DNA of 17,004 bases from a candidate division TA06 bacterium SM23_40 (GTDB lineage: Bacteria; LJUI01; SM1-40). Below are positions 1-17,004 of this stretch, piece by piece. Numbering within the stretch: position 1 is the first letter of the stretch; every line of letters starts with the position of its first letter. Both the position numbers and the translations under genes were made by a program. The notes beneath the pieces were generated by a model, which was not told where the DNA came from, made no database searches, and saw nothing but the letters and a program-made list of their open reading frames with translations. The stretch spans positions 1-17,004 of the forward strand of contig LJUI01000047.1 in assembly GCA_001303705.1 (NCBI GenBank). The letters run 5' to 3'.

Positions 1-1
1 C

Positions 2-1645: not shown

Positions 1646-1797
1646 CGCGGGATGCCACCCGGATCGTGCAAATCGGCCCGCAGGAGTCACCTCGATCTGA
1701 GGAGCACTGAGTCACGTACTGACAACGGAGGTCTGCGTCCCAGCGATCAGGAGCAGTTCATTGCGACCGAGCGGCGTCGACCGGGAAGGTGCGGGCG

Positions 1798-2712: not shown

Positions 2713-2783
2713 CGCTCTCCTTCCCTTCTGCGACATGTCCGCATGGAGGGCCATTGGACGAGAGGATTCACGTCAGGCGGTCC

Positions 2784-3998
2784 TCAGGTGAGCAGCTTGA
2801 CGATCCTCTCCAATGCCCAGTCGATATCCTCCTTAGTAGCGATGAGAGGCGGGGCGAAGCGGATGACCTGGCCGTGAGTCTCTTTGGCCAGGATTCCCTC
2901 CTCCATGAGCTTCTCACAGAACGTTCTCGCCGTGCCCGAGGACTCTTTCACATAGGCTCCGATCAGAAGGCCTCGTCCCCTAATCTCCTTGATGTGGGGT
3001 GAGTCCATGCCCTCGAGCTCGGACACGAAGTACGCCCCCAACTGAGCTGCCTTCTCCGGCAGCTTCTCGCCGATGATGACGTCGAGAGCAGCTATTGCCA
3101 CCGCGCAGGCGAGTGGGTTCCCGCCGAACGTGCTCCCGTGATCTCCCGGAGTGAAGACATCCATCACCTCCCGCGAGGCGAGGATGGCCGAGATGGGGAT
3201 CACGCCGCCGCCGAGAGCCTTTCCCAGAATGAGGATATCCGGGGAGATTCCATCGTACTCACAGCAGAACATTTTCCCCGTACGGCCGAGACCGGTCTGG
3301 ATCTCGTCGAGGGCGAGGAGCACATTGTGGCGCTCGCAGATATCGGCCGCCGCCCGCAGATAGCCATCATCGGGAACGATGATGCCCGCCTCGCCCTGGA
3401 TCGGCTCGACGAGGAAGGCCACGGTCTCGGCGGTGATTGCCTTCTCGAGGGCGTCGATATTGTTGTACGGGATGAGGCGGAAGCCCGGTGCAAACGGCCC
3501 GAACCCTGAGCGATACTGTTCCTCGGAAGAGAATCCGACGATCGTTGTCGTCCGGCCGTGGAAATTGTTATCGCAGACGATGATCTCAGCTCTATCTCTG
3601 GGGACTCCTTTTACCGTATACCCCCACTTTCTCGCCGCTTTGACCGCCGTCTCGACCGCCTCGGCGCCGGTGTTCATGACGAGAGTGCTCTCCATGTGTG
3701 CGAGATCACAGAGGTTCTTGCACAGCGGGCCGAACTGGTCGTTATGAAACGCCCGGGAGGTGAGTGTCAGGCGGGCCGCCTGGTCGTGGAGGGCGGCCAT
3801 GATCTTCGGATGACGGTGTCCCTGGTTCAGTGCCGAATAGGCGCTGAGCATATCGAGGTACTGTTTGTCTTCTACATCCCACACCCAGACGCCTTCGGCG
3901 CGCGCGATGACGACTGGCAGAGGAAGGTAGTTGTGAGCGCTGTACCGGTCTACCAGATCGATACATGCCTCAGTTGCACTGCACTCCTTCGTGGCCAT
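2784..3998 (-). CDS. rocD: ornithine--oxo-acid aminotransferase
   Basis: 404 residues, full length for ornithine aminotransferase, a class-III PLP-dependent aminotransferase. It converts ornithine and 2-oxoglutarate to glutamate-5-semialdehyde and glutamate in the cytoplasm, linking arginine/ornithine catabolism to proline and glutamate. Visible motifs are the N-terminal substrate-pocket segment DRYSAHNYLPLPVVIARAEG, the cofactor phosphate loop NTGAEAVETA (109-118), the cofactor-binding LDEIQTGLGRTG (230-241), the Schiff-base lysine in LGKALGGG (K260), and GSTFGGNPLAC (288-298). The start MATKECSATEACIDLVDRYSAHNY is full length and has AGAGG a few bases upstream. The EIIA gene ends 26 bp upstream on the same strand, so co-transcription is likely. 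Other class-III aminotransferases (acetylornithine, GABA) are the alternative, but the N-terminal signature and overall match favour RocD. Confidence 0.94.
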   Translation of the reverse strand: MATKECSATEACIDLVDRYSAHNYLPLPVVIARAEGVWVWDVEDKQYLDMLSAYSALNQGHRHPKIMAALHDQAARLTLTSRAFHNDQFGPLCKNLCDLAHMESTLVMNTGAEAVETAVKAARKWGYTVKGVPRDRAEIIVCDNNFHGRTTTIVGFSSEEQYRSGFGPFAPGFRLIPYNNIDALEKAITAETVAFLVEPIQGEAGIIVPDDGYLRAAADICERHNVLLALDEIQTGLGRTGKMFCCEYDGISPDILILGKALGGGVIPISAILASREVMDVFTPGDHGSTFGGNPLACAVAIAALDVIIGEKLPEKAAQLGAYFVSELEGMDSPHIKEIRGRGLLIGAYVKESSGTARTFCEKLMEEGILAKETHGQVIRFAPPLIATKEDIDWALERIVKLLT

Positions 3999-4024
3999 GC
4001 GCCTCTGTCCCCCTGTTGATCTGA

Positions 4025-4531
4025 CTATTCCATCTCCTTGAACGTCTTGATGATCTCGTGTTCCGACTGAGCTTCGAGTAAGCTCCGCCGGAACTCCTCC
4101 ATCCGCACTAATGTCATGAGGTCTTTCAATACTTTAAGGTAGGTCCGGTCGTCATACGGCGGACTCACCATGACGAAGAAAAGGTGGCTCGGCCGCTTGT
4201 CGAGCGCATCGAAATCGATTCCCTCCGTCGATCTGGCAAACGCGATGACGAAGTCCTTGGCCTGGATCGTCCGGACGTGGGGGATCGCAACTCCGCTCTC
4301 GAGACCTGTTGTCGCCTTTTTCTCGCGATTGAACAGGTCGGTGAAGAGCTTGGATCGGTTCCCTATCTTGCCCGACCGCTCGAGGAGCTCGACCAGTTCT
4401 TCGAGAACTGCCTGCTTTACCTCCCACAGCAGGCGGTCCGGGCGCTCGCTCTCCCCGTCGGCGAACGCCTCCGGATCCGTCTCCAGTTCCATCTTGATGA
4501 GATCGGGCCGTAGATAACGCGCGATATTCAT
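4025..4531 (-). CDS. PTS EIIA type-2 domain protein (PtsN-like)
   Basis: 168 residues from MNIARYLRPDLIKMELE, where the EIIA fold normally begins. The longer 201-residue frame back to 4630 adds a low-complexity extension that does not resemble the family. The phosphorylation-site signature TTGLESGVAIPHVRT is complete, with the phosphoacceptor His at residue 85. The C-terminal segment PSHLFFVMVSPPYDDRTYLKVLKDLMTLVR matches the fructose/mannitol/nitrogen EIIA family. Such proteins accept phosphate from HPr or NPr. Without EIIB/EIIC partners in the window, a regulatory (EIIA-Ntr-like) rather than transport role is more likely. A moderate AAGAGG lies ~13 bases upstream, so the exact start is slightly uncertain. 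The neighbour 26 bp downstream is rocD, an uncommon pairing suggesting a link to nitrogen or carbon status. Confidence 0.88.
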   Translation of the reverse strand: MNIARYLRPDLIKMELETDPEAFADGESERPDRLLWEVKQAVLEELVELLERSGKIGNRSKLFTDLFNREKKATTGLESGVAIPHVRTIQAKDFVIAFARSTEGIDFDALDKRPSHLFFVMVSPPYDDRTYLKVLKDLMTLVRMEEFRRSLLEAQSEHEIIKTFKEME

Positions 4532-4630
4532 CGCAAGTGCTGTGCCTCTTTCGGGTGCGATCGAACGATCCAGGGTTGCTCCCCAACAGGAGCCTTCTAT
4601 GGGCTGTCGTAACCTTCTCACTGTGCACAT

Positions 4631-4659
4631 CTTGACAAAGGGGTTGACGGTTTGTCAAG
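4631..4659. promoter_or_regulatory. 9-bp-arm palindrome upstream of the EIIA-rocD operon
   Basis: CTTGACAAA (4631-4639) and TTTGTCAAG (4651-4659) are a perfect inverted repeat with an 11-base spacer. It lies about 100 bp upstream of the EIIA start, in the 210-bp gap after the beta-barrel gene. Each arm contains TTGACA, so it could overlap a -35 element, but I see no convincing -10 at proper spacing on the minus strand. On the minus strand an alternative fold also exists (GGG-C-TTGAC with GTCAACCC, then CTTTG), so an attenuator or weak terminator for the upstream gene is possible. Operator is the preferred reading by symmetry, but this is inference. Confidence 0.45.
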
Positions 4660-4711
4660 CCCTAACCGGCATATTTCCCGGCGTGCGCGCCCTCGGACAG
4701 ACGATGGCTGG

Positions 4712-4728
4712 GGGCGTCGAAGACGCCC
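4712..4728 (-). terminator. short GC-rich hairpin after the beta-barrel gene
   Basis: GGGCGTC-GAA-GACGCCC is a perfect 7-bp stem with a 3-base loop, beginning 13 bases beyond the stop codon of the 4742-5539 gene. The bases following on the minus strand are not T-rich, so this is not a canonical intrinsic terminator; it may protect the mRNA 3' end or assist termination. Confidence 0.35.
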
Positions 4729-4741
4729 GGAAATGGTTCGA

Positions 4742-5539
4742 CTACTCCAGAGGGAGAAGGGGAATGGCGTCCGGTTCCGAGGCGGGCCTGCTGAGGTAGT
4801 AGCGGAAGGTGGTGGATAGTGTGGCGCCGGAGATATCTGCCCGCCACGTGCCGAACGGGCCGATCGTCTCCCGTGTCGTTCCCCCCAGAAGGTATCTGAA
4901 CTCGGACACCCAGGCGAGATGTTCGCCTGCAAACCATTCGATGCCGACAAGGGGGAAGAGACAGACTCCACTGTGCCACACAGTCTTTCGCGATTCGAGG
5001 TCATAGGTCTCACCTATGTCCGCACCGTCAGACTCGATCTGTCCCGAGAGGATCGTCACGCCGCCGCCGGCACCGACATAGAGGGATAGAGTCTGCGATG
5101 GGATCGTCAGATGCTGTATGACCGAGAGGGAAGTGAGATGCATGCTGCGACGGTACATCACTTCGGGAAAGATCGCAGCACGGCTTCTGTAGGAGAAGTC
5201 AGAGTATCGGAGGCTCGATGGCGGGGAGTACAGATGCTCTGCGCGGAATCCCCAATAGGGTCCGATGCCGCGCAGGAGGCTGATGGCCACGCCGGGCACC
5301 CCGCTGTCGTGCTGGCGCATCTCGAACTGGTGGTAACCATTATTGTCGGGATCGAGATATTGCGAGCGTGTCGAGAACGACAGGTCAAGCCAGCCGGCAG
5401 AGATGCCCAGTGCGGTCTTCCCCTCCAGGTCGACGCCCGATGCCGGTGGTGACGAGAGGAGCATCACGCCAGTCGCAAGCCCGAGGATGACGAAGCGGGG
5501 GAAGGCTATCTTCTCTAAGGGTGTCGGATTTCCTAACAT
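4742..5539 (-). CDS. secreted, probable outer-membrane beta-barrel protein
   Basis: 265 residues. The N-terminus has a basic start and hydrophobic core (PRFVILGLATGVMLLSSPPASG), consistent with a Sec signal peptide cleaved near residue 35. The remainder is rich in alternating hydrophobic/polar stretches and aromatic residues (KTALGISAGWLDLSFSTRSQY, LSLYVGAGGGVTILSG, ATLSTTFRYYLSRP), the pattern of a small outer-membrane beta-barrel of about eight strands. No enzymatic motif is visible. GAGGT directly abuts the ATG, an unusually short ribosome-site spacing that may mean inefficient or coupled initiation. A strong promoter and an intrinsic terminator lie within 155 bp upstream, so expression may be controlled by premature termination. 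A porin-like or structural envelope role is plausible but not proven. Confidence 0.75.
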   Translation of the reverse strand: MLGNPTPLEKIAFPRFVILGLATGVMLLSSPPASGVDLEGKTALGISAGWLDLSFSTRSQYLDPDNNGYHQFEMRQHDSGVPGVAISLLRGIGPYWGFRAEHLYSPPSSLRYSDFSYRSRAAIFPEVMYRRSMHLTSLSVIQHLTIPSQTLSLYVGAGGGVTILSGQIESDGADIGETYDLESRKTVWHSGVCLFPLVGIEWFAGEHLAWVSEFRYLLGGTTRETIGPFGTWRADISGATLSTTFRYYLSRPASEPDAIPLLPLE

Positions 5540-5542
5540 ACC

Positions 5543-5650
5543 TCAATGGGGGCAAACAGATGGCTTCTCCCTGCGGAGATTCAAAAATCGGCGCCTCCGA
5601 GAGCGGCGCCGAGGATGAAGATCGGTCGGTGTCCCTTGCCACCATCCCAT
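5543..5650 (-). CDS. possible leader peptide upstream of the beta-barrel gene (tentative)
   Basis: A 35-codon frame starts at ATG 5650, begins MGWWQGTPTD, carries an Arg-rich run (RRRSRRRRF), and stops with TGA at 5543, three bases before the ATG of the beta-barrel gene. It spans the terminator hairpin at 5588-5612, so ribosome movement could influence termination. A GGGAG directly precedes the ATG, a poor spacing. Evidence is only position and length; it may be chance. Confidence 0.15.
   Translation of the reverse strand: MGWWQGTPTDLHPRRRSRRRRFLNLRREKPSVCPH
5583..5612 (-). terminator. intrinsic terminator inside the leader of the beta-barrel gene
   Basis: On the minus strand TCGGCGCC - 9 bases - GGCGCCGA is a perfect 8-bp GC-rich stem followed directly by TTTTT, the full signature of a Rho-independent terminator. 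It lies 44 bp upstream of the ATG at 5539 and ~50 bp downstream of the promoter at 5664-5692. It is therefore either the end of a small RNA or an attenuator of the beta-barrel gene. Confidence 0.75.
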
Positions 5651-5663
5651 CTCCCACAGCTCC

Positions 5664-5692
5664 ATTCTACGTATGATGTGCGAATCTGTCAA
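5664..5692 (-). promoter_or_regulatory. sigma-70-type promoter TTGACA-N17-TAGAAT
   Basis: On the minus strand a perfect -35 (TTGACA, 5687-5692) is followed by a 17-base spacer and a -10 TAGAAT (5664-5669, five of six consensus). Transcription would start near 5657. This is the best housekeeping promoter in the window and drives either the beta-barrel gene or a ~75-nt RNA ending at the terminator at 5583. Confidence 0.75.
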
Positions 5693-5822
5693 GGAGATTC
5701 TGGCTCCGCCGCCATATCGGGCTGAGACGGCATTCCTCCCTGCGGGTCGGTCGGGCCCCCGCGTACAGGCCCTGGGGCCGGAGGCGGTGGACGCACAGAA
5801 ACGCGACGGGCCGAGCGTGTCT

Positions 5823-5851
5823 GCGCCCGGGGACGGGTGGTCCCCGGGCGC
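5823..5851. other. strong 12-bp GC-rich stem-loop in the 475-bp gap 5540-6014
   Basis: GCGCCCGGGGAC (5823-5834) and GTCCCCGGGCGC (5840-5851) form a perfect stem with loop GGGTG. It lies ~165 bases downstream of the protease stop codon. No T-run follows on either strand, so it is not a canonical terminator; an mRNA 3'-end stabiliser or Rho-aided terminator is possible. Apart from this, the promoter and the terminator, I see no gene in this gap. Confidence 0.5.
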
Positions 5852-6014
5852 TCGCGTCCGCTCCGTATGTTCGTATCATTTGACCCCATGAGAGATATGT
5901 CGTGTGTTAGCTCGATGTTGAAGGTGGCCCCTTTAGAGCGGATTCTTTCTCAGAGATGTCATGTTGTAACTGCCGGAGGTGCCTCGAGGCGCTGCCTCAC
6001 AGGGTCATATGATA

Positions 6015-9000
6015 CTATCTGAGGACGATCATCCGTCTCGTCAGTACCCTGCCGTCCGCCTCCAGGCGGCAGAAGTAGATGCCGCTTGCGACACGGGAGC
6101 CATGCGCGTCCGTGCCCACCCAGCGCACCCGATGGACGCCCGCCTGCCGCACCTCATCCATAAGGTAGGCAACACGCTGGCCCAGGATGTTGTACACGGC
6201 CAGGCGGACAGGTCCTCTCTTCGGCAGGGCGAACTCGATCTCCGTCTCGTCTCGGACAGGATTGGGGCGGTTCTGGCCGAGCGCGAGCTCGACGATCTGT
6301 TCCAGTTCTTCATCTCCGGCATCTCTCTCGACGCTCACGATGGGCCTCGTGGCGAACCCTACTCCCGAATCCCCGCTGAAGAACATCCTGTACGATTCAC
6401 CCTCGACGAAGATCTGCGGGGAGATGATTATGGTCTGATCCCAGCGTCCCGGCCCGCCTACGTCGAGTTCGCACCCATAATCACCGGGGCCGGTCTGTCT
6501 TGTCCAGATGATGCCATCTGGCGACGTAGCCGATCCGACACGGTACCTTCCGTCCTCTTCGACGATGCCGCCGTACCACATGCGGTATCTGTCGCCTTCC
6601 CAGACGACAAACGGATCCCAGACGCTCAACTGGTCGAAGCGTCCCGGATCGCCGCTCTCACTCAGGATCGGCGCGCCGTGTCGCGTCCAATTCACACCGT
6701 CCTGGGAGGTAGCGAGCCCGATCCTGTACAGGAAGTCGGGATAGCCGAACGCCGAGTACCACATGCGGTAGTCATCCGGCCCCGACTTCGATAGAAAGAG
6801 CCCGTATATGATGAACCAGTCCCAGCTGTAGTACTGACCGAGAAGGACGGGGTTGCCGCCGTACTTCTCCCACGTGATACCGCCGTCGGTCGAAGTGGCG
6901 TACCCGACCCCCGCGGTCGCGAGACCGTCGCTTCCGATGAACCACATCTTCAACGTATCGCCGTCCCTGATGACGAAGGGGCGCCAGACGAGCACATTAT
7001 CCCATCCCGAGGCGGACGGCGAGAGCACAGGGTTGGAGGGCTCCCGCTCCCACGTGAGCCCGCCATCGGTGGACGTCGCGAGCCCGATTTGGTAGACGGA
7101 GGCCATCGTATCTCCTCCCACTCCTGCGTACCACATCTTGAAGACTCCCTCATCTTCGAGCATGGTGCCGCCGACTACGAATGAGTCCCATTCGGTCGAG
7201 TCGCCAGGGGAGAAGACGGGGTTGAGCGGGCTCTTCACCCAGTTCGAGGTCCTCGGGACCCGTACCTCGAGGGTATAGACGAACTGGGTTCCCCGTTCGT
7301 CAGCGACGACGAGTGTGAAGTCTATCGTCTGGCCGACAGGGTGGCCGAGAGAGACCGTGAAGTCGAAGTCGTCGAATGTGGTAGCTATGCCTTCTTCCGG
7401 AATATCCCCGAACAGCTCGACGCTGTCGGTGATCGTAACGTATGGATCGGCCGTCGAGATGACGCCGCGCACCTCATGGCCGACCGCTGTGCCGCTGTTT
7501 CTGACCGAGACCGGGAGCTCGATCGACTCGCCCGGCTGGGCGACACCATCGCCGTTGCCCGCGCTCGTCCCCGAACTGTCATCATCGAGGTAGTAGTGCT
7601 CCAGGGTCAGGATCGGTATCGAGAGTCCGGAGGCGGCGAAGACGTCGGCGATGCCCCAGCCGTAGTCGTTATCGGGAGAGCTCGACTGGCTTGCGGTGCT
7701 GAGGAGCGCCTCGCGCACCTGCATCGGCGTCCACTCGGGGTGTATCTCGAGGAGGAGGCCGGCAGAGCCTCCGATGAGCGGCGTGGAGAATGACGTGCCG
7801 CTCCCGTACCCGTACGCCGTCGTGGTAGCCGGGTCGACAAGGTATGTGTCGACGCCGAGGGCGCACACCTCGGGCTTGGTGCGACCATCATAGGTCGGGC
7901 CGCGCGAACTGAAGGTGGCGATGATGTTCGATCGGTCGACAGCGCCGACGGCAATAATGCTGTCTGCGTCGGCCGGGGCGAGCATTGTCCCCGAGGCAGG
8001 GCCCTCGTTTCCCATGCAGTTGCAGACGACGATGCCGTTGTACGCCGCCCAGTCCGCGGCCTGGGTCGTCACCGCGCTGTCTCCGTTCATGTCAGGGTAC
8101 GTGTACCAGTCGATATATCCGAGTGAGCTGGAGACGACATCCGCGCCGAGGCTGTCGGCCCACTCGATCCCTTCGACCCACCAGTCCTCCTCCTGCGGGT
8201 ACTCGCCGGATGTGTCTTCGGTCTTGGCGAGGATAAAGCTCGCACCGTAGGCAGGTCCGATCAGGTTGCCATCGGAGAACCCCCCGAGAACAGAGAGGGT
8301 CGCTGTCCCGTGGTAGTCCTGGCCCGGCGGATCACCGGGCTCGTTCTCAGTGATATCATCATCGTTGATGAAGTCGTGCTCGGCGATGAGATCGATGCCC
8401 GTGAGTGCCTCATGGTGGCGGTTGAACCCGGTGTCGAGCATGCATACGATGACCCCGGCACCGCTGTATCCCAGCATGTGGAGGGGCAGTACATTGATCT
8501 GCTCAAGCTGGAAATCGGACAGTCCATAGTCCCATGAGAAGGCGCGGCCCGGCTGCTCTAACGGCGTAACGGCGCGGGGAGGGGCGGGGCGCACTTCCTC
8601 GCGGAAGGTTCTCCGATAGGAGACGAGAGGATTGATTGCCCGGACGAAGGGAAGCCGGGAGATCGCGCGGATCTGGTCCGGTGTGGCCTCGATGCTCACG
8701 GCGTTGAGCCAGCGCGATGTCGCGCGATGTTTCGCCCCGGTCGCCTCGATCGCTGCGATGTATTCTGATTTGACGGAGATGTCTCGGAAGTCGACGAGAT
8801 CGTCCTCTGCGCGCACCTTGGCGCGCCTGTGGAGCGTTCGCTCGGGAAATGCGGCACGGGCGGCGTCGAGGCGGGTCTGACATTCCCGTTCATCGAAGAT
8901 ACCTTTGTCCGTCAGGTAGACCCATACCTTGAGTCGCGCCTCGGGTCGGCCCTCCATCAGTTCACGAACCCGCGGCGAGATGAGCGGGATCCGCTGAGGT

Positions 9001-9119
9001 TGCGTGAGGGCAGGGTCGGTGAGGTGCTGGCCATGAGTCTGTTCAGCACCGGGCGGGGCAGCGCCCACGAAAAGGGCGGCTGCCAGGATGAGGATTCCGA
9101 ATCTTCGAGCTTGCTTCAC
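6015..9119 (-). CDS. secreted subtilisin-family serine protease with beta-propeller-like region and C-terminal sorting-type domain
   Basis: 1034 residues. The start is GTG at 9119 with GGAGG eight bases upstream, leading into a signal peptide (KQARRFGILILAAALFVGAA). The longer frame to 9413 overlaps the neighbouring gene and is rejected. Domains: I9-like inhibitory propeptide ~60-170; S8 catalytic domain ~215-500 with Asp229 (VCMLDTG), His270 (DYHGTA), oxyanion Asn371 (GNEGP) and Ser443 (GTSFSTP); an Ig/CARDB-like segment ~510-625; then five repeats of a GH43/GH32-like propeller with [KR]M[WF][YF] cores (661, 724, 785, 846, 911) and S-x-DG-x-x-W motifs; and a FlgD/type-IX-like tail at 945-1034. 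Likely secreted or surface-anchored and autoprocessed. It lies 166 bp downstream of the propeller lipoprotein; a weak promoter (TCGACC-N17-TATTTT) may lie in that gap. Confidence 0.93.
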   Translation of the reverse strand: MKQARRFGILILAAALFVGAAPPGAEQTHGQHLTDPALTQPQRIPLISPRVRELMEGRPEARLKVWVYLTDKGIFDERECQTRLDAARAAFPERTLHRRAKVRAEDDLVDFRDISVKSEYIAAIEATGAKHRATSRWLNAVSIEATPDQIRAISRLPFVRAINPLVSYRRTFREEVRPAPPRAVTPLEQPGRAFSWDYGLSDFQLEQINVLPLHMLGYSGAGVIVCMLDTGFNRHHEALTGIDLIAEHDFINDDDITENEPGDPPGQDYHGTATLSVLGGFSDGNLIGPAYGASFILAKTEDTSGEYPQEEDWWVEGIEWADSLGADVVSSSLGYIDWYTYPDMNGDSAVTTQAADWAAYNGIVVCNCMGNEGPASGTMLAPADADSIIAVGAVDRSNIIATFSSRGPTYDGRTKPEVCALGVDTYLVDPATTTAYGYGSGTSFSTPLIGGSAGLLLEIHPEWTPMQVREALLSTASQSSSPDNDYGWGIADVFAASGLSIPILTLEHYYLDDDSSGTSAGNGDGVAQPGESIELPVSVRNSGTAVGHEVRGVISTADPYVTITDSVELFGDIPEEGIATTFDDFDFTVSLGHPVGQTIDFTLVVADERGTQFVYTLEVRVPRTSNWVKSPLNPVFSPGDSTEWDSFVVGGTMLEDEGVFKMWYAGVGGDTMASVYQIGLATSTDGGLTWEREPSNPVLSPSASGWDNVLVWRPFVIRDGDTLKMWFIGSDGLATAGVGYATSTDGGITWEKYGGNPVLLGQYYSWDWFIIYGLFLSKSGPDDYRMWYSAFGYPDFLYRIGLATSQDGVNWTRHGAPILSESGDPGRFDQLSVWDPFVVWEGDRYRMWYGGIVEEDGRYRVGSATSPDGIIWTRQTGPGDYGCELDVGGPGRWDQTIIISPQIFVEGESYRMFFSGDSGVGFATRPIVSVERDAGDEELEQIVELALGQNRPNPVRDETEIEFALPKRGPVRLAVYNILGQRVAYLMDEVRQAGVHRVRWVGTDAHGSRVASGIYFCRLEADGRVLTRRMIVLR

Positions 9120-9189
9120 AGCACATACCTCCTCTCTCGGATCTTGCGTTGAGCGGCGCAAAATAGTCTGGTAAATGCGCGAGGTCGAG

Positions 9190-9221
9190 CAGGTGGGAGC
9201 TGGACGCTGAGTACCCACCTG
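9190..9221. repeat. 8-bp-arm inverted repeat between propeller lipoprotein and protease genes
   Basis: CAGGTGGG (9190-9197) and CCCACCTG (9214-9221) are perfect inverted arms with a 16-base spacer, 65 bp beyond the stop codon of the propeller gene and ~70 bp upstream of the protease start. No T-run follows on the minus strand, so operator or transcript-processing hairpin are both possible. Confidence 0.35.
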
Positions 9222-9285
9222 AAGATACGTTTGACGCTTGTCCGGTGTTCCAGGGCGCTTGGTGCAGGCGGGATGCGATTCCATC

Positions 9286-11058
9286 TCAGGGGACCGCGAA
9301 CAGCGAGTCGGCCAGGCCGACGTCGAATTGGATCCCGACGACCTGCGTCTCGCCAACAAGCTGGTGCTGTACGAGCCGTCTGGTGACAAACGGGATGCGT
9401 CGTCCGCCAGCAACTGCCCGGTAGTCCTCGAACCGGGACTCCCTGATTATCGGCGCGTATGGGATCCGTTCTAGCAGCCGTCGGGGCAGCCCGTCGTGCG
9501 CGCTGACCCAGAGCTGGCTGGATGTGTAATCGCCCTGGCTCGCGCCGATCACCACCACGTCAATTCCGTCGACTACTTCTGTGTGGATGACGTCGGCAGC
9601 GATTCCCAGCTTGTCCGGCGGCGCGTCGTCCAGGTCGCCTGCAAGATGTTTCAGGAACTGCTCGGGTGAGAGGTTGTAGACGGCATAAAGCAGGTAGCCG
9701 AGACTCTGCGGCACGTCGGAGAGCCGTCCCTGCCCCGGGAGCGGCACGCCATAGTTGTAGATGAGCACCGAGTTTTCTCCGAGCTCGACACGCTCTTCGC
9801 CCGGCGGCCTGAAGAGAAGACGAATATCGAGTGTGGCTGCTCCTCCCTCCGCCTGGACGGCATACATAGTTCCGCGCTGGGTCAAGACCATGTCCCGGAC
9901 CGATTGTCCCTCGCCCTTCATTCTCTCGAAGATTCGGTACAGCTGCGAGCGGTCGGGCCCGCCACCACTCTTGATGCGGTCGCGAGATCGGGCCGGGAGG
10001 TGCGAGAATCCGATCTCGCCCACGCCAGGGCCTGCAGACAAGGTCGCCAGGACCGCGAGAGATCCGGGATCGAGGATGAAAATGCGCTTGGTCGCTCTAT
10101 CGATGAGCACCAGCCGGTCGCCCTCCGGTGTGAATGCACCGAAGCCGGGAGACTCACCTAGTGCCAGGTTGCGATAGGGTGAGATCTCGAGGCTATCCTC
10201 GAAATTCGTCTGAAAAGTGATCACCAATCCTACTCTTGGTTCGTCGCCCTCAGCCTCCGCCTCGGTCGCCACCACGAGCTGGGTCCCGTCCGGGCGCACC
10301 ATGATCGAGCGGGGCGCCCTGTCGAGCGGGATGGTGCGGACCGCCTTGAGCGTCGCAGTGTCGATGATAGTGATATCGCGGGACAGAACGTTGGCTGTTA
10401 TCACATAGCGTCCGTTCGGCGAGATGGCGATGTCGTACGGGTCGTTGCCAACCTCGATCTCGGCAGCAATCACGCGCTCCTCGGTATCGTAGACGGTGAT
10501 CTTGTCATAGGTGCGCGCCTCATCGGGGGAGTAGGTGCCGGGGATGTGTCTCTGACAGATATACAGCCAGCGATCGTCAGGAGTGAGAACGGCCCGCCAC
10601 GGATTCGGGATCTCGACCGATGCTGTGGAGATGAGAAATCCGGTCTCGGCGTCGAACTCATGGACAGCATCGGAGATTACGTAGTAGCGGCTCCCGTCAC
10701 TGGTGAAGACCGGATTGACCAGAGGGGTGGTCTTGATGGCGTGAGTCGCCGTCTCGATGATTGTAGTTTGATATCCGCGGCGGTTGGCTACCCATATCTC
10801 CTCGCCGCCGGGCCGCACCCTGATCGACTCCGGTCCATCGCCGGCATAGATCTTGCCGATCGCTCGAGCCTCATAAGGGTCTATTATCAGAATATGATTG
10901 CGGTCGCGGATCGACACGTAGCCGAGGACGACGAGTTCTGTCTCCTGGACCTGGCAGCCGAACATCAAGGTGGCGGCGAGGAGAGCAGCGGCGATCAGGA
11001 GGAGCAGCCATCTCCGTAGGGCGAGATGAGAGAGGGCGGTAAGGATAGTACGATACAT
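9286..11058 (-). CDS. YVTN-type beta-propeller lipoprotein fused to a LolA/LppX-like domain
   Basis: 590 residues. The N-terminus has a hydrophobic signal (RRWLLLLIAAALLAATLMFGC) with a candidate lipidated Cys35, although the lipobox LMFGC is not ideal. Residues ~40-350 are a surface-type beta-propeller of YVTN/NHL blades (GDGPESIRVRPGGEEIWVANR; GNDPYDIAISPNGRYVITAN; APRSIMVRPDGTQLVVAT). Residues ~366-590 resemble the outer-membrane lipoprotein-sorting (LolA/LppX-like) fold, with LWVSAHDGLPRRLLER and a terminal DSLFAVP. The propeller probably binds a protein or ligand, while the LolA-like half is a hydrophobic-groove module; the joint function is unknown. AGGAGG lies 11 bases upstream of the ATG, a long spacing. 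Its start is 72 bp downstream of the selenoprotein TAG stop, consistent with co-transcription. Confidence 0.82.
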   Translation of the reverse strand: MYRTILTALSHLALRRWLLLLIAAALLAATLMFGCQVQETELVVLGYVSIRDRNHILIIDPYEARAIGKIYAGDGPESIRVRPGGEEIWVANRRGYQTTIIETATHAIKTTPLVNPVFTSDGSRYYVISDAVHEFDAETGFLISTASVEIPNPWRAVLTPDDRWLYICQRHIPGTYSPDEARTYDKITVYDTEERVIAAEIEVGNDPYDIAISPNGRYVITANVLSRDITIIDTATLKAVRTIPLDRAPRSIMVRPDGTQLVVATEAEAEGDEPRVGLVITFQTNFEDSLEISPYRNLALGESPGFGAFTPEGDRLVLIDRATKRIFILDPGSLAVLATLSAGPGVGEIGFSHLPARSRDRIKSGGGPDRSQLYRIFERMKGEGQSVRDMVLTQRGTMYAVQAEGGAATLDIRLLFRPPGEERVELGENSVLIYNYGVPLPGQGRLSDVPQSLGYLLYAVYNLSPEQFLKHLAGDLDDAPPDKLGIAADVIHTEVVDGIDVVVIGASQGDYTSSQLWVSAHDGLPRRLLERIPYAPIIRESRFEDYRAVAGGRRIPFVTRRLVQHQLVGETQVVGIQFDVGLADSLFAVP

Positions 11059-11130
11059 TATTGCATTTTCCTCCTCACGGTCACACTGAGGAACGTGGTG
11101 GATCCGCGGGCTCTGTCGCCCGAGATGGCG

Positions 11131-11781
11131 CTAGGGCGTGGCCGATTCGGCGTTCAGTATCTGAGTGATGAATTCTGCCTCAGTCACCGCCCCGACGAAC
11201 TGGACTGTCTCGTTGATGACAGTCTTGGGGACCCCGGAGACGTCGTACTTGTGGGCCAGATGGGGAAACTCGATGGCCTCGACCATATCGGCACGGACGA
11301 GGTCAGACTCTATCGCCGACCGGTGCGCCAGGCGAACTGCCTGGGTGCAATAGGGTCAGGTGGGTGTGACCAAAACCTGAATATGGACCGGTTTCGTAAG
11401 TCCGGCGAGCTTCTCGCGCGAGGCATGAGCCAACCCTGAATCTCCTTGTGAAACATCGATGATGTCCTCGATCAACGATGCGGTCTCATACCCGGCAGGT
11501 ATCCCGTAGAATCGGAGGCCGTAGTCCTTTGTCCCCTCGATAACGGTCGCGGGTATCTTGTCGATGCCGTACCGCTCGACTATCTGTTGATCAATCTGGA
11601 AATCGTAGACCTCGAGCGAGATCTTCTCTGATGTCTCCGCGATCTCCTCCAGCAGCCTCCTCGTCTCGCCGCAGAACTGACACTCCAGCTCCTGAGTGAA
11701 GTTGACCACCTTCACCTGCCCGGCCAGGACCTTAAACCGGTCCCGGATGGTCTCTTTATCTTTGGGAGCTATGAGAGCCAT
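11131..11781 (-). CDS. protein disulfide oxidoreductase, predicted selenoprotein with in-frame TGA (Sec142)
   Basis: 217 codons from ATG 11781 (GAGGAG five bases upstream) to TAG 11131, read through TGA at 11356-11358. It has two thioredoxin folds. The N-terminal one has CQFC (C34-C37) and cis-Pro segment KIPATV (P77). The C-terminal one begins VHIQVLVTPT, then the TGA codon, then PYCTQAVRLAHRSAIESDLV, with cis-Pro segment GVPKTVINE (P185). PDO proteins normally carry CPYC after TPT, so TGA stands exactly for the first active-site cysteine, giving U142-P-Y-C145. Post-TGA sequence keeps the family fold in one frame for 74 codons, and a SECIS-like hairpin follows the TGA. Likely a cytoplasmic thiol-disulfide or peroxide-reducing partner. 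Calling the gene as ending at 11356 leaves half a domain. Residual risk: a true nonsense mutation or sequence error. Confidence 0.85.
11324..11349 (-). promoter_or_regulatory. candidate bacterial SECIS element
   Basis: On the minus strand, 17 bases after the TGA, CCAGGC-AGTTC-GCCTGG forms a perfect 6-bp stem with a 5-base apical loop (11328-11344), extended by a lower TGC/GCA stem across a small internal loop. It meets published bacterial SECIS criteria: a loop 16-37 nt after UGA and a G within the first two loop bases (AGTTC). The stem-loop is inside the coding sequence, as expected in bacteria. Confidence 0.72.
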
Positions 11782-11884
11782 TTTCTCCTCCTCGCGCGAG
11801 CTTGTGCTCTTTGCACATCGCGGCCATCCTGCGAACGCGGCAGGCAACACGGCAGAAAGGGTGTGCTCCGAGTGAGGTGTCAAG

Positions 11885-11913
11885 ACGATACCGCCTCGTA
11901 CAGGCGGTGTCAA
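11885..11913 (-). promoter_or_regulatory. sigma-70-type promoter with dyad filling the spacer, upstream of the oxidoreductase
   Basis: On the minus strand TTGACA (11908-11913), a 17-base spacer and TATCGT (11885-11890) form a promoter about 100 bp upstream of the ATG. The spacer is exactly the perfect inverted repeat CCGCCT-GTACG-AGGCGG (11891-11907), a likely operator. A second TTGACACC copy lies 30 bp downstream (11878-11883), without a good -10. Confidence 0.5.
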
Positions 11914-12021
11914 CGCATATTTGCCGTCGGTGTGTGCCAATTCACTCAATCGGAAGGGCGAAATCTCAAACGGGGGAACAACCCACTGGATTCGCGATTA
12001 GCGGGATTGGGGGTCGGATGG

Positions 12022-12080
12022 TTGCACTCTGGTGCGAAGAAAGACACAGCACGGGGGGTGGGGAGGGCACGGCCGTGCTG
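12022..12080. promoter_or_regulatory. candidate sigma-54 enhancer: two phased GCAC-N4-GTGC dyads
   Basis: GCAC-TCTG-GTGC (12024-12035) and GCAC-GGCC-GTGC (12067-12078, a perfect 12-bp palindrome) share the same dyad spacing. Their centres are 43 bp apart, close to four helical turns. They lie ~140-195 bp upstream of the sigma-54 promoter at 12217. A further CAGCACGG (12047-12054) inversely repeats CCGTGCTG (12073-12080). The arrangement suits an NtrC-class activator, but the binding protein is inferred. The 526-bp gap 11782-12307 otherwise holds only promoters. Confidence 0.4.
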
Positions 12081-12216
12081 CGTGCGACCGCCGCGGCCCG
12101 ACGGCGGGAGGAAGGGGCCCACCGATCGATGCACTAAGCCGCCATTTTCCGGGGTGTTATGCCGTCCACAAATCCGAGTGTATGGAGCAAGCGACATCGG
12201 CCGGTACACACCGTCG

Positions 12217-12232
12217 TGGCACACTTCTTGCT
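12217..12232 (+). promoter_or_regulatory. sigma-54 (-24/-12) promoter upstream of the NtrC-class gene
   Basis: TGGCACACTTCTTGCT matches TGGCAC-R-N4-TTGCW at every specified base, with GG (12218-12219) and GC (12230-12231) ten bases apart. Transcription would start near 12243, giving a ~65-nt leader to ATG 12308. It rules out the longer frame starting at 12032 as the protein start. Confidence 0.85.
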
Positions 12233-12307
12233 AAATTGGGACACCGGCACGAGCCCGGTTCCGCAGGGCAATGGACCGCATCTACCACCCCACAAATACT
12301 GAGGCTT

Positions 12308-13801
12308 ATGCGTTCATCGACGATATCGCCTTTGGGCCCGACAGAGACGCAGGAGGAGACAGGGCGCAAGGAGGGTGCGGAGGGATTCCTGGTGCTCGTG
12401 GCTTCTCCGGAGGCCGGATATCGGGACACCCTTCTGCCGCTCATTCTTCGAGAGGGTTGGTCATTCTCCTGGGCGGAGACCGCCGAGCAGGCACTCCGTA
12501 AGTTCGAGCGCTCCGATCCCGCGGTGGTGTTGTTGGCCACCGATCTCGCCGGCTCGTCAGCCCTGAAGCTCCTTTCCCGGATCAAGGAGCATTCGGACGA
12601 GCAGGAAGTGATTGTCATCACCCAGAATCCGGACGTCCAGACGGCGGTCGAGGCGACGCGGCTGGGAGGAAATGAGTACATCTGTCTCGATTCTCAGATC
12701 GATCGCCTGCGTGAGCGGCTGGAGGGGGCGTACGACGAGTGGATGGCTCGACAGAACCGGGCGGGCGACGCTGCCTGGAAGCAGCGGCGATACGGCCTGG
12801 AGAATATCATCGGGGAGAGCCCGGTGATGCAGGAGGTGTACACGTGGGCGGAAAAGATCATCGCGAGTGACTCGGTGACCGTGTTGATCAGAGGAGAGAC
12901 GGGGACGGGCAAGGAGCTCCTCGCCCGGGCAATGCATTATGGAAGCGCCCGTGGGAAGCAGCCATTCGTGGAGATCAACTCCACCGCGATCCCCGACGAT
13001 CTTCTGGAGGCTGAGCTGTTCGGGTACGAGAAGGGAGCGTTCACCGATGCCAAGAGGCAGAAGAAGGGGCTTCTCGAGCTCGCCAACGGCGGTTCGCTCT
13101 TCTTCGATGAAATCGGTCACATGAGCATGAAGCTCCAGCTCAAGCTGCTGAAGGTCGTGGAGGAGAAGGTCTTTCGCCGTGTTGGAGGGGTCAAAGACAT
13201 CAGCGTGGATGTGAGGATAATGGCGGCCACAAGTCGCGACCTGGAGGCGGCCCTGCGGGATGGGTATTTCCGCGAAGACCTGTACTATCGACTGAACGTC
13301 GTCTCCATCGAGTTACCGCCACTCCGGGAGCGTGGCGGCGACATCATTCTCCTGGCCAACCACCTCGTGAAACGGTTCAACAAGGAATACAGCCGGGAGA
13401 TCGAGGGGATCTCGGCCGAAGCCGAGCGCCTGCTCATGGCGTACGAGTGGCCGGGGAACGTGCGGGAGCTCAAGAATGCGATCGAGCGCGCTGTCCTCCT
13501 CGGCAATGGGAGGCTCATCGTCCCTGAGGACATCCGGATCAGCCTGCGGGTCGATACGGCCCTGAAGGATCAGGGACGAAGACAGAAAGGATCGGGCATC
13601 ACTCTGGAGGTGCCGCTCGAGGATTTCTCTTTTGCCGAGGTGGAGAAGGCCGTAATCGCCGAGATCCTCAAGATGAACGGCTGGAATAAGAGCAAGGCGG
13701 CGAGAATGCTAGACATATCCCGGCCCAGACTGCTGAGAAAGATAAAGAGGTACGGTCTGGAGAGGGATGGATCCGAGCCAGGAGACGGGACCTGTCCATG
13801 A
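12308..13801 (+). CDS. NtrC-class sigma-54-dependent activator with degenerate receiver domain
   Basis: 497 residues from ATG 12308, preceded by a weak GAGG and placed after a sigma-54 promoter. Residues ~26-140 are receiver-like but have lost the key residues: the beta1 acidic pair is A32-S33, the phosphoacceptor position is Ala77 (VVLLATDL where VVLLDxxL is usual), and the beta5 lysine is absent (YICLDSQ). The AAA+ domain at ~165-400 is intact: Walker A GETGTGKE (196-203), sigma-54-contacting loop GAFTDA (243-248, a G-to-D variant of GAFTGA), Walker B SLFFDEIG (263-270), AATSRDLEAALRDGYFREDLYYRLN and WPGNVREL (381-388). A Fis-type HTH is at ~446-483 (NGWNKSKAARMLDISRPRLLRKI). It should open sigma-54 promoters using ATP, but probably not through phosphorylation. 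It likely regulates its own gene and the downstream lipoprotein. Confidence 0.93.
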   Translation: MRSSTISPLGPTETQEETGRKEGAEGFLVLVASPEAGYRDTLLPLILREGWSFSWAETAEQALRKFERSDPAVVLLATDLAGSSALKLLSRIKEHSDEQEVIVITQNPDVQTAVEATRLGGNEYICLDSQIDRLRERLEGAYDEWMARQNRAGDAAWKQRRYGLENIIGESPVMQEVYTWAEKIIASDSVTVLIRGETGTGKELLARAMHYGSARGKQPFVEINSTAIPDDLLEAELFGYEKGAFTDAKRQKKGLLELANGGSLFFDEIGHMSMKLQLKLLKVVEEKVFRRVGGVKDISVDVRIMAATSRDLEAALRDGYFREDLYYRLNVVSIELPPLRERGGDIILLANHLVKRFNKEYSREIEGISAEAERLLMAYEWPGNVRELKNAIERAVLLGNGRLIVPEDIRISLRVDTALKDQGRRQKGSGITLEVPLEDFSFAEVEKAVIAEILKMNGWNKSKAARMLDISRPRLLRKIKRYGLERDGSEPGDGTCP

Positions 13802-13946
13802 ACAACTGTAACGAAATAGATCTGCTGAACTGGGACAGATCCGGCGATTGTGCAAAGGTCAGGGAAAGCGAGCGGCCGGACGGGGCGCTGACTAACGTTC
13901 TCGGGTTCAGTGAATTAGCGGAGTCAGCCGGGATGGGAGAGCGGTC

Positions 13947-13962
13947 TGGCACAAGTATTGCT
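13947..13962 (+). promoter_or_regulatory. sigma-54 (-24/-12) promoter upstream of the ZU5-like lipoprotein
   Basis: TGGCACAAGTATTGCT is a second exact match to TGGCAC-R-N4-TTGCW, with GG (13948-13949) and GC (13960-13961) ten bases apart. Transcription would start near 13973, leaving a ~119-nt leader before ATG 14092. The leader contains hairpins CGCCGG-AGAGG-CCGGCG (13994-14010) and GGAGC-TCGG-GCTCC (14065-14078), the latter just before the GGAGG ribosome site. Confidence 0.85.
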
Positions 13963-14091
13963 TCACTAGTTGAGCGAACGTCGGAACAGGGCACGCCGGA
14001 GAGGCCGGCGGGCCTGACCCGATCCAGTACGGGACGAAACGATATCCCGAGATGGGGTCGCACAGGAGCTCGGGCTCCGAGGAGGTACATG

Positions 14092-14649
14092 ATGCGTTCG
14101 CTCAACACGACACGGGGTTGGCTTGTGGGAGGACTGTTGATACTCATACTTGTCCTCGTTGGGTGTAGCCGGGACGACTCCCCGATTGCTCCGTCGGGGC
14201 CGGCAGCACTGGAACCGGATACGAGGACGGAACTGAATTTCCTCCCTATCGTAAATCCCGGGGGCGAGGGCCCTGCCAGAGGCCCGTGGATTCCGATACT
14301 GATCTGGGACAGGTTCAAAGACGACGGCGGCGAGCTCGATAACGGCCTCATCAGATTGGTGATCCCGGAAAACGCGCTCGGAGACGAAGCGTACATCTGG
14401 ATCTTCAGAGATCCTTTCTACGCGAAGGCTACCTTCGGCCCGGAAGGCCTCCGCTTCGCGAAGAAGGTGGAGCTGCGCTTCGATCTCGACTACGTTCAGT
14501 TGGGCTCGCTAAGCCCGGATGACGTTAGCATATGGTGGTTCGACGATGACTTGAATGAGTGGGAGAGGCTCGATACGTGGTTTGACCAGTCAGAGAGGGA
14601 GGTGGTTGCGGAGATCCGTCACTTCTCGGTATACGCGCTCTCCGATTAA
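14092..14649 (+). CDS. lipoprotein with ZU5-like C-terminal domain
   Basis: 185 residues from MRSLNTTRGW; GGAGG lies six bases before ATG 14092 (a second ATG at 14089 is immediately adjacent). The longer frame from 13798, which overlaps the preceding stop as ATGA, would place a sigma-54 promoter inside the gene and bury the signal peptide, so I reject it. The signal LVGGLLILILVLVGC has a perfect lipobox LVGC with lipidated Cys25. Residues ~80-185 fit the ZU5-like pattern seen in bacterial surface lipoproteins: IRLVIPENALGDEAYIWIF, FGPEGLRFAKKVELRFD, DVSIWWFDDDLNEWERLDTW and the terminal IRHFSVYALS. It is probably an envelope-anchored beta-sandwich, adhesive or structural; no enzyme motif is seen. 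Confidence 0.85.
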   Translation: MRSLNTTRGWLVGGLLILILVLVGCSRDDSPIAPSGPAALEPDTRTELNFLPIVNPGGEGPARGPWIPILIWDRFKDDGGELDNGLIRLVIPENALGDEAYIWIFRDPFYAKATFGPEGLRFAKKVELRFDLDYVQLGSLSPDDVSIWWFDDDLNEWERLDTWFDQSEREVVAEIRHFSVYALSD

Positions 14650-14658
14650 GTGTCAACT

Positions 14659-14697
14659 GTCGGAGCCCCTGATTGGAGGTGTGTCGGGGGCTCCGAC
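14659..14697 (+). terminator. strong 11-bp stem-loop after the lipoprotein gene
   Basis: GTCGGAGCCCC (14659-14669) and GGGGCTCCGAC (14687-14697) pair perfectly around a 17-base loop, nine bases past the stop codon. No T-run follows, so it may act as a partial terminator or mRNA stabiliser between the lipoprotein and HD-GYP genes. Confidence 0.4.
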
Positions 14698-14713
14698 CGA
14701 ACAGTCAGCCTTG

Positions 14714-14737
14714 ACGAAGAGTGGTTTCCCTCTTCGT
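14714..14737 (+). promoter_or_regulatory. second stem-loop in the leader of the TPR/HD-GYP gene
   Basis: ACGAAGAG (14714-14721) and CTCTTCGT (14730-14737) are a perfect 8-bp stem around loop TGGTTTCC, ending ten bases before the ribosome site GAGAGGAG. It may modulate translation of the downstream gene; it does not match the cyclic-di-GMP riboswitch consensus as I remember it. Confidence 0.35.
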
Positions 14738-14758
14738 ACACGCTGAGAGGAGCCAAAG

Positions 14759-16675
14759 ATGAAAGCCAGAGAGTCTCTCTCTCTGGAACAGCTTCTAGTG
14801 CTCTTGCAGAAGATTCGGTCTGCACCGGGTGTAGACCGGCCCGACATTGATGAGCCCGAAGCTGAAGAGATAATGGTCGATGGCGACGCCTTCGACCGTC
14901 TCAGGCGTTGGGTGGCCGATGGCGCTATTCCGGGCGAGGACGTGATCAAGCTCGGCCTTGTCAAGGATTCGCCTGAACAGGGTGAGTCCGCCACTCAGCC
15001 ACTCAAATTGACGGAGCGAGATCGTCTGGTGGTGTTGATGGAGGCCGGGAAGGTTCTGGCGTCAATGTATGACTGGGATCGGTCCATAGATTGTTACCGG
15101 GAGGCGCTGGAGATCTGCGAAAGACTAGAGGATACCGAGGCAAAGGCAGAGGCCTCCAAGCAGATCGGACGCCTCTATCGTCGTAAGAATCAATGGAAGG
15201 AGGCACTCGGCGCCTACGAGAAGAGCCTTGAGATGTACCGCGCGCTCGGCGATCTCGAAGGTGTGGCTCAAATTCACAACTCGCTGGGCATCATCTACTT
15301 CGAAAACGGCAAGTGGGACGAGGCGAAGGAGCGGTATCACGAGGCGCTGGAGGTAGCAGAGGAGCTCTCGAACTTCTTGCTCATCGCGAAGATAAACAAC
15401 AACCTGGGTGCTCTGGCGAATGCGATGGGCGACTGGGATCGGGCGGTCATTCACTATCAGGAAAGTGTGCCGGGGTTCGAGAAGGCCGGCGACCTGAAGG
15501 GGTTGGCGGAGACCTACCACAACCTCGGGATGACCTTTGCCGATCAGGGAAATCTGGAGAAGGCAGCCGAGTACTACGAGAGAAGCCTCGATCTCTCAAA
15601 GGAGCTTGGAGATCAGCGGCTGATGTCCGGCACTTTTATCAACCGGGCACACCTGTTTGCCAGAGAGGGCAATTACGACAAAGCCAAGGAGTACTGCGAT
15701 CGCGCACTGGCGATGCTCGACAGGCTCGGCGACAAGCTCGGCATCGCTGAAGTGTACAAGCTCTACGGTATGCTCCACCGCGAGCGGGAAGAGTGGGAGA
15801 GCGCGGAGCACTTGCTTCTGCAGAGTATCGCTTTAGGTGAAAAGATTCTCAATCCGCTCGGTGTGGCAGAGGCGTGCCACGAGCTCGGACTGGTGTACGA
15901 ACGCATGGGCGAAGGGAAGAAGACCTTGAAGCTGTTGACCAAGTCGCTCGACATCTTCAAGGAGCTTCGTGCGAGGAGGAGCATACTCCAGCTGAACCGA
16001 GAGCTGACAGAGGTCGAGAAGCTGTACCTTCGCATTCTGGAATCGATGGGTGCGGCGGTTGAAGCGAAGGATCCGTACACCCACGGTCATTCCCGGCGCG
16101 TGGCAAACTACTCACTTGAACTCGCCAGTAGATTCGAGGTTTCCGAAGAAGAGGCGAAGGGCATCTTGAGCGCGGCATATCTCCACGATGTGGGGAAAGT
16201 CTACATCGACGAAACGATCTTGATTAAACCGACAAGACTGACCGATGACGAGTACGAGCTGATCAAGCAGCATCCCAGGCTCGGCCTCCGCATGCTGGAG
16301 TCTGTCGAGTTCCCGTGGACGGTCAAGCCGCTCATCCTGCACCACCACGAGCACTTTGACGGGTCGGGATATCCCGACGGATTGAGCGGGAACGACATCC
16401 CCTGGGGTGCAAGACTCATCTTCGTGGCCGACTTCTTCGACGCCATGACGTCGGATCGGCCCTATCGAGCAGCCTGGGCAGTAGAGGAGACGATCAAGGT
16501 AATTCTTCACAACAGAGGAACATTGTTCGATCCCGAGATCGCTGATGTCTTCATCGACCTCGTGAAGAGCGAAGCCGCCCCTATTCAGGAGGATATCGCG
16601 TGTCGATTTGAGCGCGTGAAGAGCGCGCTGGAAAGCGGTCGCACGGCGGCATCCGAGGTCGAAGTTCGCTCATAG
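14759..16675 (+). CDS. TPR-repeat / HD-GYP domain protein (cyclic-di-GMP phosphodiesterase type)
   Basis: 638 residues; GAGAGGAG lies about eight bases upstream of ATG. Residues ~1-80 are an uncharacterised helical N-terminus. Residues ~90-412 hold about eight TPRs (SIDCYREALEIC, ALGAYEKSLEMYRALGD, AVIHYQESVPGFEKAGD, AAEYYERSLDLSKELGD), a protein-binding scaffold. Residues ~425-620 are an HD-GYP phosphohydrolase: H444 in THGHSRRVANYS, H476-D477 (AAYLHDVGKVYI), H505, H529-H530 with the GYP motif at 537-539 (HFDGSGYPDGL), D558 and RPYR. All metal-site residues I can check are present, so it should be active on cyclic-di-GMP (or a related dinucleotide). It has no membrane span and is cytoplasmic. 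It lies 109 bp after the lipoprotein and may share its sigma-54 transcript across two hairpins. Confidence 0.93.
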   Translation: MKARESLSLEQLLVLLQKIRSAPGVDRPDIDEPEAEEIMVDGDAFDRLRRWVADGAIPGEDVIKLGLVKDSPEQGESATQPLKLTERDRLVVLMEAGKVLASMYDWDRSIDCYREALEICERLEDTEAKAEASKQIGRLYRRKNQWKEALGAYEKSLEMYRALGDLEGVAQIHNSLGIIYFENGKWDEAKERYHEALEVAEELSNFLLIAKINNNLGALANAMGDWDRAVIHYQESVPGFEKAGDLKGLAETYHNLGMTFADQGNLEKAAEYYERSLDLSKELGDQRLMSGTFINRAHLFAREGNYDKAKEYCDRALAMLDRLGDKLGIAEVYKLYGMLHREREEWESAEHLLLQSIALGEKILNPLGVAEACHELGLVYERMGEGKKTLKLLTKSLDIFKELRARRSILQLNRELTEVEKLYLRILESMGAAVEAKDPYTHGHSRRVANYSLELASRFEVSEEEAKGILSAAYLHDVGKVYIDETILIKPTRLTDDEYELIKQHPRLGLRMLESVEFPWTVKPLILHHHEHFDGSGYPDGLSGNDIPWGARLIFVADFFDAMTSDRPYRAAWAVEETIKVILHNRGTLFDPEIADVFIDLVKSEAAPIQEDIACRFERVKSALESGRTAASEVEVRS

Positions 16676-16703
16676 CGGAGCAACAGAAGAGAAACGCGAT
16701 GTG

Positions 16704-16803
16704 AGGGGGAACCTTCCTGGCCTGGAAATAGAGAGGAATAGACGCGGGGCCGCGCGAATTCGTCGGGTTCCTGGGTCTGTAGCCAGCGTGTTAGGTTCCC
16801 CCT
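16704..16803. repeat. 100-bp element bounded by an 11-bp inverted repeat
   Basis: AGGGGGAACCT (16704-16714) and AGGTTCCCCCT (16793-16803) are perfect inverted repeats 78 bp apart, starting 28 bp after the HD-GYP stop. The interior holds smaller dyads: TTCC-TGGCCT-GGAA, CGCGG-GG-CCGCG, CGAATTCG and CTGG...CCAG. As RNA it would be a closing stem with several arms, perhaps a structured 3' UTR; as DNA it could be a small MITE-like element. It has no coding capacity. Confidence 0.45.
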
Positions 16804-16849
16804 TCGTTATGTACCGCGGGCCTGTCGGTTGACATACACGATGGAGAAG

Positions 16850-17004
16850 ATGTGTCACGGCGCCGGCCAGCTACATCGAGCGTGCGGGAGATGTATCACG
16901 GCGCCGGCCAGCTACATCGAGAGTGTGAGAGATGTATTGCGGAGCCGGCCAGCTACATCGGGTGTGCGGTGGATGCGCTGCGGCGGCGGCCAGCCAGATC
17001 GGGT
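16850..17004. repeat. 41-bp tandem repeat array, at least 3.8 units, running off the window
   Basis: Units start at 16850, 16891, 16932 and 16973 (last one partial), each exactly 41 bp apart. By hand the first two match at 37 of 41 positions and the second and third at 32 of 41. Every unit has a core near GGCGCCGGCCAGCTACATCG; units 2 and 3 contain the dyad GATGTA...TACATC, so each can fold into a hairpin. There are no unique spacers, so it is not a CRISPR array. A 41-bp period shifts frame and the repeat is non-coding. Confidence 0.85.

Follow-up and report, generated by a model that had tools for sequence, protein, structure and literature searches.

A protein disulfide oxidoreductase gene of a candidate division TA06 bacterium with a probable selenocysteine codon in its second active site

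The N-terminal domain of AhpF is formed by tandem thioredoxin folds with one CxxC motif, and AhpC is reduced by it. In a thioredoxin fold that carries a UxxC motif, the first residue attacks and the second is the resolving cysteine; selenocysteine (Sec) at the first position confers higher reactivity at neutral pH. The protein disulfide oxidoreductases (PDOs) of solved structure (PDB 1a8l, 1j08, 2ywm, 2ayt, and 2hls) have two thioredoxin domains with a CxxC in each, and the second motif, CPYC, begins with a cysteine. Proteins of the PDO model TIGR02187 with a UxxC motif are a listed selenoprotein family (PMC9312934, PMC13188914), credited in PMC13188914 to Kryukov and Gladyshev 2004 (its reference 12). 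A 2006 listing includes such Sec-PDOs from Carboxydothermus hydrogenoformans and Symbiobacterium thermophilum (PMC1794560), and a 2024 listing includes them for the Borrarchaeales of the Asgard archaea (PMC11227280). The preliminary description of the locus reported here held that a Sec form of this two-domain family was not established, which is wrong: the literature had listed it by 2006, and the NCBIfam short name of TIGR02187 is PDO_seleno_TRX.

The stretch of DNA analysed, called the window below, comprises 17,004 nt (contig LJUI01000047.1, positions 1-17,004), and window coordinates are used throughout. On its minus strand, a frame opens at ATG 11781-11779 and runs for 141 codons to a TGA at 11358-11356, directly after ...VHIQVLVTPT. 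Past the TGA the same frame continues as PYCTQAVRLAHRSAIE..., includes GVPKTVINE, and ends at TAG 11133-11131. Translated with TGA as U, the product has 216 residues with U at position 142; the TGA is single, and the translation has no other stop or frameshift. The features of the gene are as follows.

11131 to 11781, minus strand: predicted Sec-containing PDO (TIGR02187), 216 amino acids, read through TGA; from sequence, translation, and profile and structure matches.
11787 to 11792, minus strand: ribosome-binding site AGGAGG, 5 nt upstream of the ATG, from sequence.
11671 to 11682, minus strand: domain 1 active site C34-Q-F-C37, with Cys codons, from translation.
11551 to 11553, minus strand: predicted domain 1 cis-proline P77 (KIPAT), from translation, placed by analogy with the family.
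11347 to 11358, minus strand: domain 2 active site U142-P-Y-C145, from translation and homologue alignment.
11356 to 11358, minus strand: TGA codon, very probably read as Sec, which aligns with Cys codons (73 homologues) and TGA (11 other homologues).
11227 to 11229, minus strand: predicted domain 2 cis-proline P185 (GVPKT), from translation, placed by analogy with the family.

Judged by its sequence, the product is a full-length two-domain thioredoxin-fold PDO (TIGR02187, also named as a homologue of the AhpF N-terminal domain). It matches TIGR02187 with 281 bits (cut-off 185; 4.3e-84) over residues 7-210, which covers model positions 3-208/209, and thioredoxin-type domains are matched in Pfam. 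Both halves required by this two-domain family are present: C34QFC37, in the context ECQFC, with KIPAT, and U142PYC145 with GVPKT, the cis-prolines being predicted. The solved Pyrococcus-type PDOs align over residues 1-211 (1j08, E 1e-52; 1a8l, E 2.3e-49), and the archaeal ...VTPTCPYC... stands opposite ...VTPTUPYC... in the window protein. The cysteine-type PDOs are thus alike along the full length and differ in having Cys where the window PDO has Sec. The published Sec-PDOs, likened by model and motif, share the NCBIfam model, the UxxC motif, and the single Sec. The N-terminal domain of AhpF (PDB 1zyn, 1hyu) has the tandem thioredoxin-fold layout in common with the window PDO, but the sequence match is weak (E 1e-4) and, unlike AhpF, the window PDO is a stand-alone protein that has both redox sites and is without the flavoprotein part. 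The preliminary description had the frame, coordinates, and residues exactly right. Its claim of a complete second thioredoxin domain after the TGA is borne out by GVPKTVINE and by the nearly end-to-end matches to TIGR02187 and the solved PDOs, the kind of alignment it had proposed for the read-through product.

We compared 80 loci fetched from GTDB-type genomes and others from a whole-genome search; the alignment and tree have 85 rows, the window included. At the site of the window TGA, 73 of these 85 family members have a Cys codon and 12 (including the window) have TGA, while TAA and TAG do not occur there. The preliminary description had placed the TGA where PDOs have the Cys of CPYC, and this pairing agrees with it; it had also considered that homologues might all be truncated at this point, and they have Cys or TGA at that codon instead. 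In the 80 fetched homologues the frame runs on through the equivalent position. Every homologue keeps the sequence downstream of the TGA as coding, and each Cys form is one unbroken protein. These observations bear on a rival reading, that the TGA is a true stop giving a 141-residue single-domain thioredoxin-like protein, with the downstream domain untranslated or translated separately. The 141-residue part does contain, in Pfam, a complete domain 1 with CQFC. The conserved downstream coding and the continuous Cys forms speak against this reading, however, as does the position of the break just ahead of the domain 2 active site, an odd place for a domain to end, and we regard it as extremely improbable. 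A gene finder that halts at the TGA would cut the PDO short ahead of its second active site.

The Sec rows come from Chloroflexota, Zixibacteriota, Nitrospirota, a record labelled Gemmatimonadota, and the bacterium UASB270. On the 85-row tree the Cys/Sec state changes 9 times in the best tree and at least 5 times on well-supported branches alone, so that Cys and Sec forms alternate repeatedly across phyla. The first Cys of the domain 1 site is Cys in every aligned row, and the switch to Sec is confined to the second site. In the sequences compared there are two redox sites per chain and only the second switches, so the contribution of selenium can be studied in the PDO by a comparison that nature provides. 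The window PDO has at most 61% identity to the homologues compared, and its source genome has no close relative among the genomes compared. Among the 11 other Sec-PDO genomes, SelB is above the cut-off in seven, split over contigs in one, a 42-residue fragment in one, and not found in two; the genomes in which it is absent or incomplete are draft or error-prone assemblies. The two genomes in which SelB was not found both hold a peroxiredoxin with an in-frame TGA, which points to a missing contig as the probable cause. A Cys-type PDO from the Zixibacteriota is interrupted in domain 1 by an in-frame TAG, at query residue 87, which is probably an assembly error or a sign of a decaying gene.

The source genome (2.88 Mb in 189 contigs, 89.76% complete, a draft assembly) carries the full Sec gene set. 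In a profile search, selA (557.9 bits) and selB (391.9 bits) adjoin on contig C5. The tRNA-Sec gene (selC) scores 77.7 bits against a gathering score of 47, ARAGORN reports it as tRNA-SeC with anticodon TCA, and selD (374.4 bits) follows directly after it on contig C58 (tRNA-Sec/selD stretch 183-1467). The preliminary description had named the absence of such genes as a ground for doubt; selA, selB, selC, and selD are all there.

Further selenoprotein genes in this genome were sought family by family. The selD gene itself has an in-frame TGA, reading MSRVRLTQLVTCAG-TGA-ASKVG (TCAG-U-ASK), which we take to be the catalytic Cys/Sec position of SelD. A 2-Cys-type peroxiredoxin on contig C137 has an in-frame TGA at about 1633, at the peroxidatic Cys position (PGDFTFV-U-PTEL); its FTFV-U-PTEL fits the published motif TxxU (PMC9312934). 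Close relatives of this peroxiredoxin with an in-frame TGA occur in several other genomes. A thiol-disulfide oxidoreductase of Prx/TlpA-like type (contig C80, 1-1200, minus strand) has an in-frame TGA in STT-U-PGC, a UxxC type, and is probably a further selenoprotein. With the PDO, at least four genes therefore have TGA at a redox Cys. FdhA, the commonest bacterial selenoprotein, had no match in the source genome (TIGR01591).

These findings weigh on two other explanations. The first attributes the TGA to faulty sequencing, or to a nonsense mutation in a PDO gene of Cys type that is decaying. In its favour are the draft state of the assembly (189 contigs, 89.76% complete) and the single base that separates TGA from TGC or TGT. 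However, the gene has no other stop or frameshift, 11 homologues of several phyla share the stop at this codon, always as TGA, and the genome encodes the whole Sec apparatus besides three further genes whose catalytic Cys position holds TGA; we consider error or decay very unlikely. The second supposes that TGA has taken on another meaning throughout the genome, for example Trp or Gly, as happens in some genomes, rather than being recoded locally. Here the tRNA-Trp found by ARAGORN has a CCA anticodon, the TCA-anticodon tRNA is of the Sec type, selA, selB, and selD are complete, and the TGA coincides with the codon of the redox Cys, just like those in the three other genes, all of which leaves genome-wide reassignment extremely improbable.

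Recoding to Sec would also draw on the RNA downstream of the TGA, where the following feature lies.

11328 to 11344, minus strand: hairpin of bacterial SECIS type, in which a stem of 6 bp (CCAGGC/GCCTGG) closes a 5-nt loop (AGUUC); the TGA lies 17 nt ahead of it.

In the bacterial SECIS model, the loop has 3-9 nt with a G in its first two positions, the stem has 4-16 bp, the spacing from the UGA is 16-37 nt, and the minimum free energy is at most -7.5 kcal/mol (PMC13188914). The window hairpin lies within all of these limits, with a folding energy of -10.7 kcal/mol alone and -18.9 kcal/mol including the lower stem. The SECIS-like hairpin of the preliminary description, CCAGGC-AGTTC-GCCTGG at 11344-11328, thus fits the published model. 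Sec and Cys homologues were compared for this hairpin, each also against its own synonymous recodings because the coding sequence partly dictates this stretch. Sec forms have the higher mean SECIS-type stem score (5.7 versus 4.2 in Cys forms; Mann-Whitney p ~2e-5), and their percentile rank against synonymous recodings is also the more extreme (Mann-Whitney p ~2e-5); both p-values are optimistic because the Sec sequences are mutually related, and one duplicate locus and near-copies inflate the contrast somewhat. By total folding energy downstream of the TGA, the two forms cannot be told apart (p 0.73). For the window PDO alone, 12% of synonymous recodings yield an equally good stem. Rfam gave no match in the window.

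The preliminary description regarded selenocysteine as the best explanation of the TGA, and it is strongly supported by the machinery, the Cys/TGA pairing among homologues, the other TGA genes, and the hairpin. We are nearly certain, on sequence grounds, that the gene encodes a PDO with U-P-Y-C as its second site and that UGA 11356-11358 is translated as Sec by way of SelB, Sec-tRNA(Sec), and the SECIS hairpin. SelB and Sec-tRNA(Sec) would decode the UGA under the direction of the hairpin 17 nt downstream. Because the literature already lists UxxC forms of TIGR02187, the window PDO joins a known selenoprotein family, to which it is a well-supported addition: apparently a genuine selenoprotein whose sequence was previously undescribed, in a family that is thinly documented.

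In the protein, Sec142 would be the attacking nucleophile of the domain 2 site and would form a selenenylsulfide with Cys145. A thioredoxin reductase is encoded in the genome (400.8 bits), and the genome search found one PDO match. With this reductase and a single PDO, the natural reading is a path from NADPH through thioredoxin reductase and the PDO to protein disulfides, the reductase presumably supplying the electrons. Cytoplasmic disulfides may be the substrates; by likeness to the AhpF N-terminal domain and AhpC, these probably include peroxiredoxins, and possibly the Sec-peroxiredoxin as well. A more specific idea is that the contig C137 Sec-peroxiredoxin (FV-U-PTE) receives its electrons directly from the Sec-PDO, in a selenium relay for peroxide that replaces AhpF/AhpC; donor and peroxidase would then both be selenium-based. 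We hold this direct relay to be rather doubtful. Genomes that hold a TGA-type relative of the peroxiredoxin number 5 among the 11 others with a Sec-PDO and 4 among the 15 with a Cys-PDO, and the groups are not clearly separated.

Among ten Sec-PDO loci whose sequence was read by eye, no conserved neighbourhood was seen; two close Chloroflexota loci have transporter genes upstream in common, and another locus has rubrerythrin-like genes. Upstream of the window PDO lies a promoter-like sequence.

11885 to 11913, minus strand: sigma-70-like promoter TTGACA-17-TATCGT, 10 of 12 matches, a consensus match only.

In 11875-11920 (minus strand), an inverted repeat ACCGCC-N7-GGCGGT lies across the spacer of this promoter, and TTGACACC occurs twice; the repeat and TTGACACC could form a candidate operator for a regulator. 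On the other side, a gene for a beta-propeller repeat protein of the YVTN type (9286-11058, minus strand) begins 72 nt past the PDO stop and is possibly co-transcribed with it.
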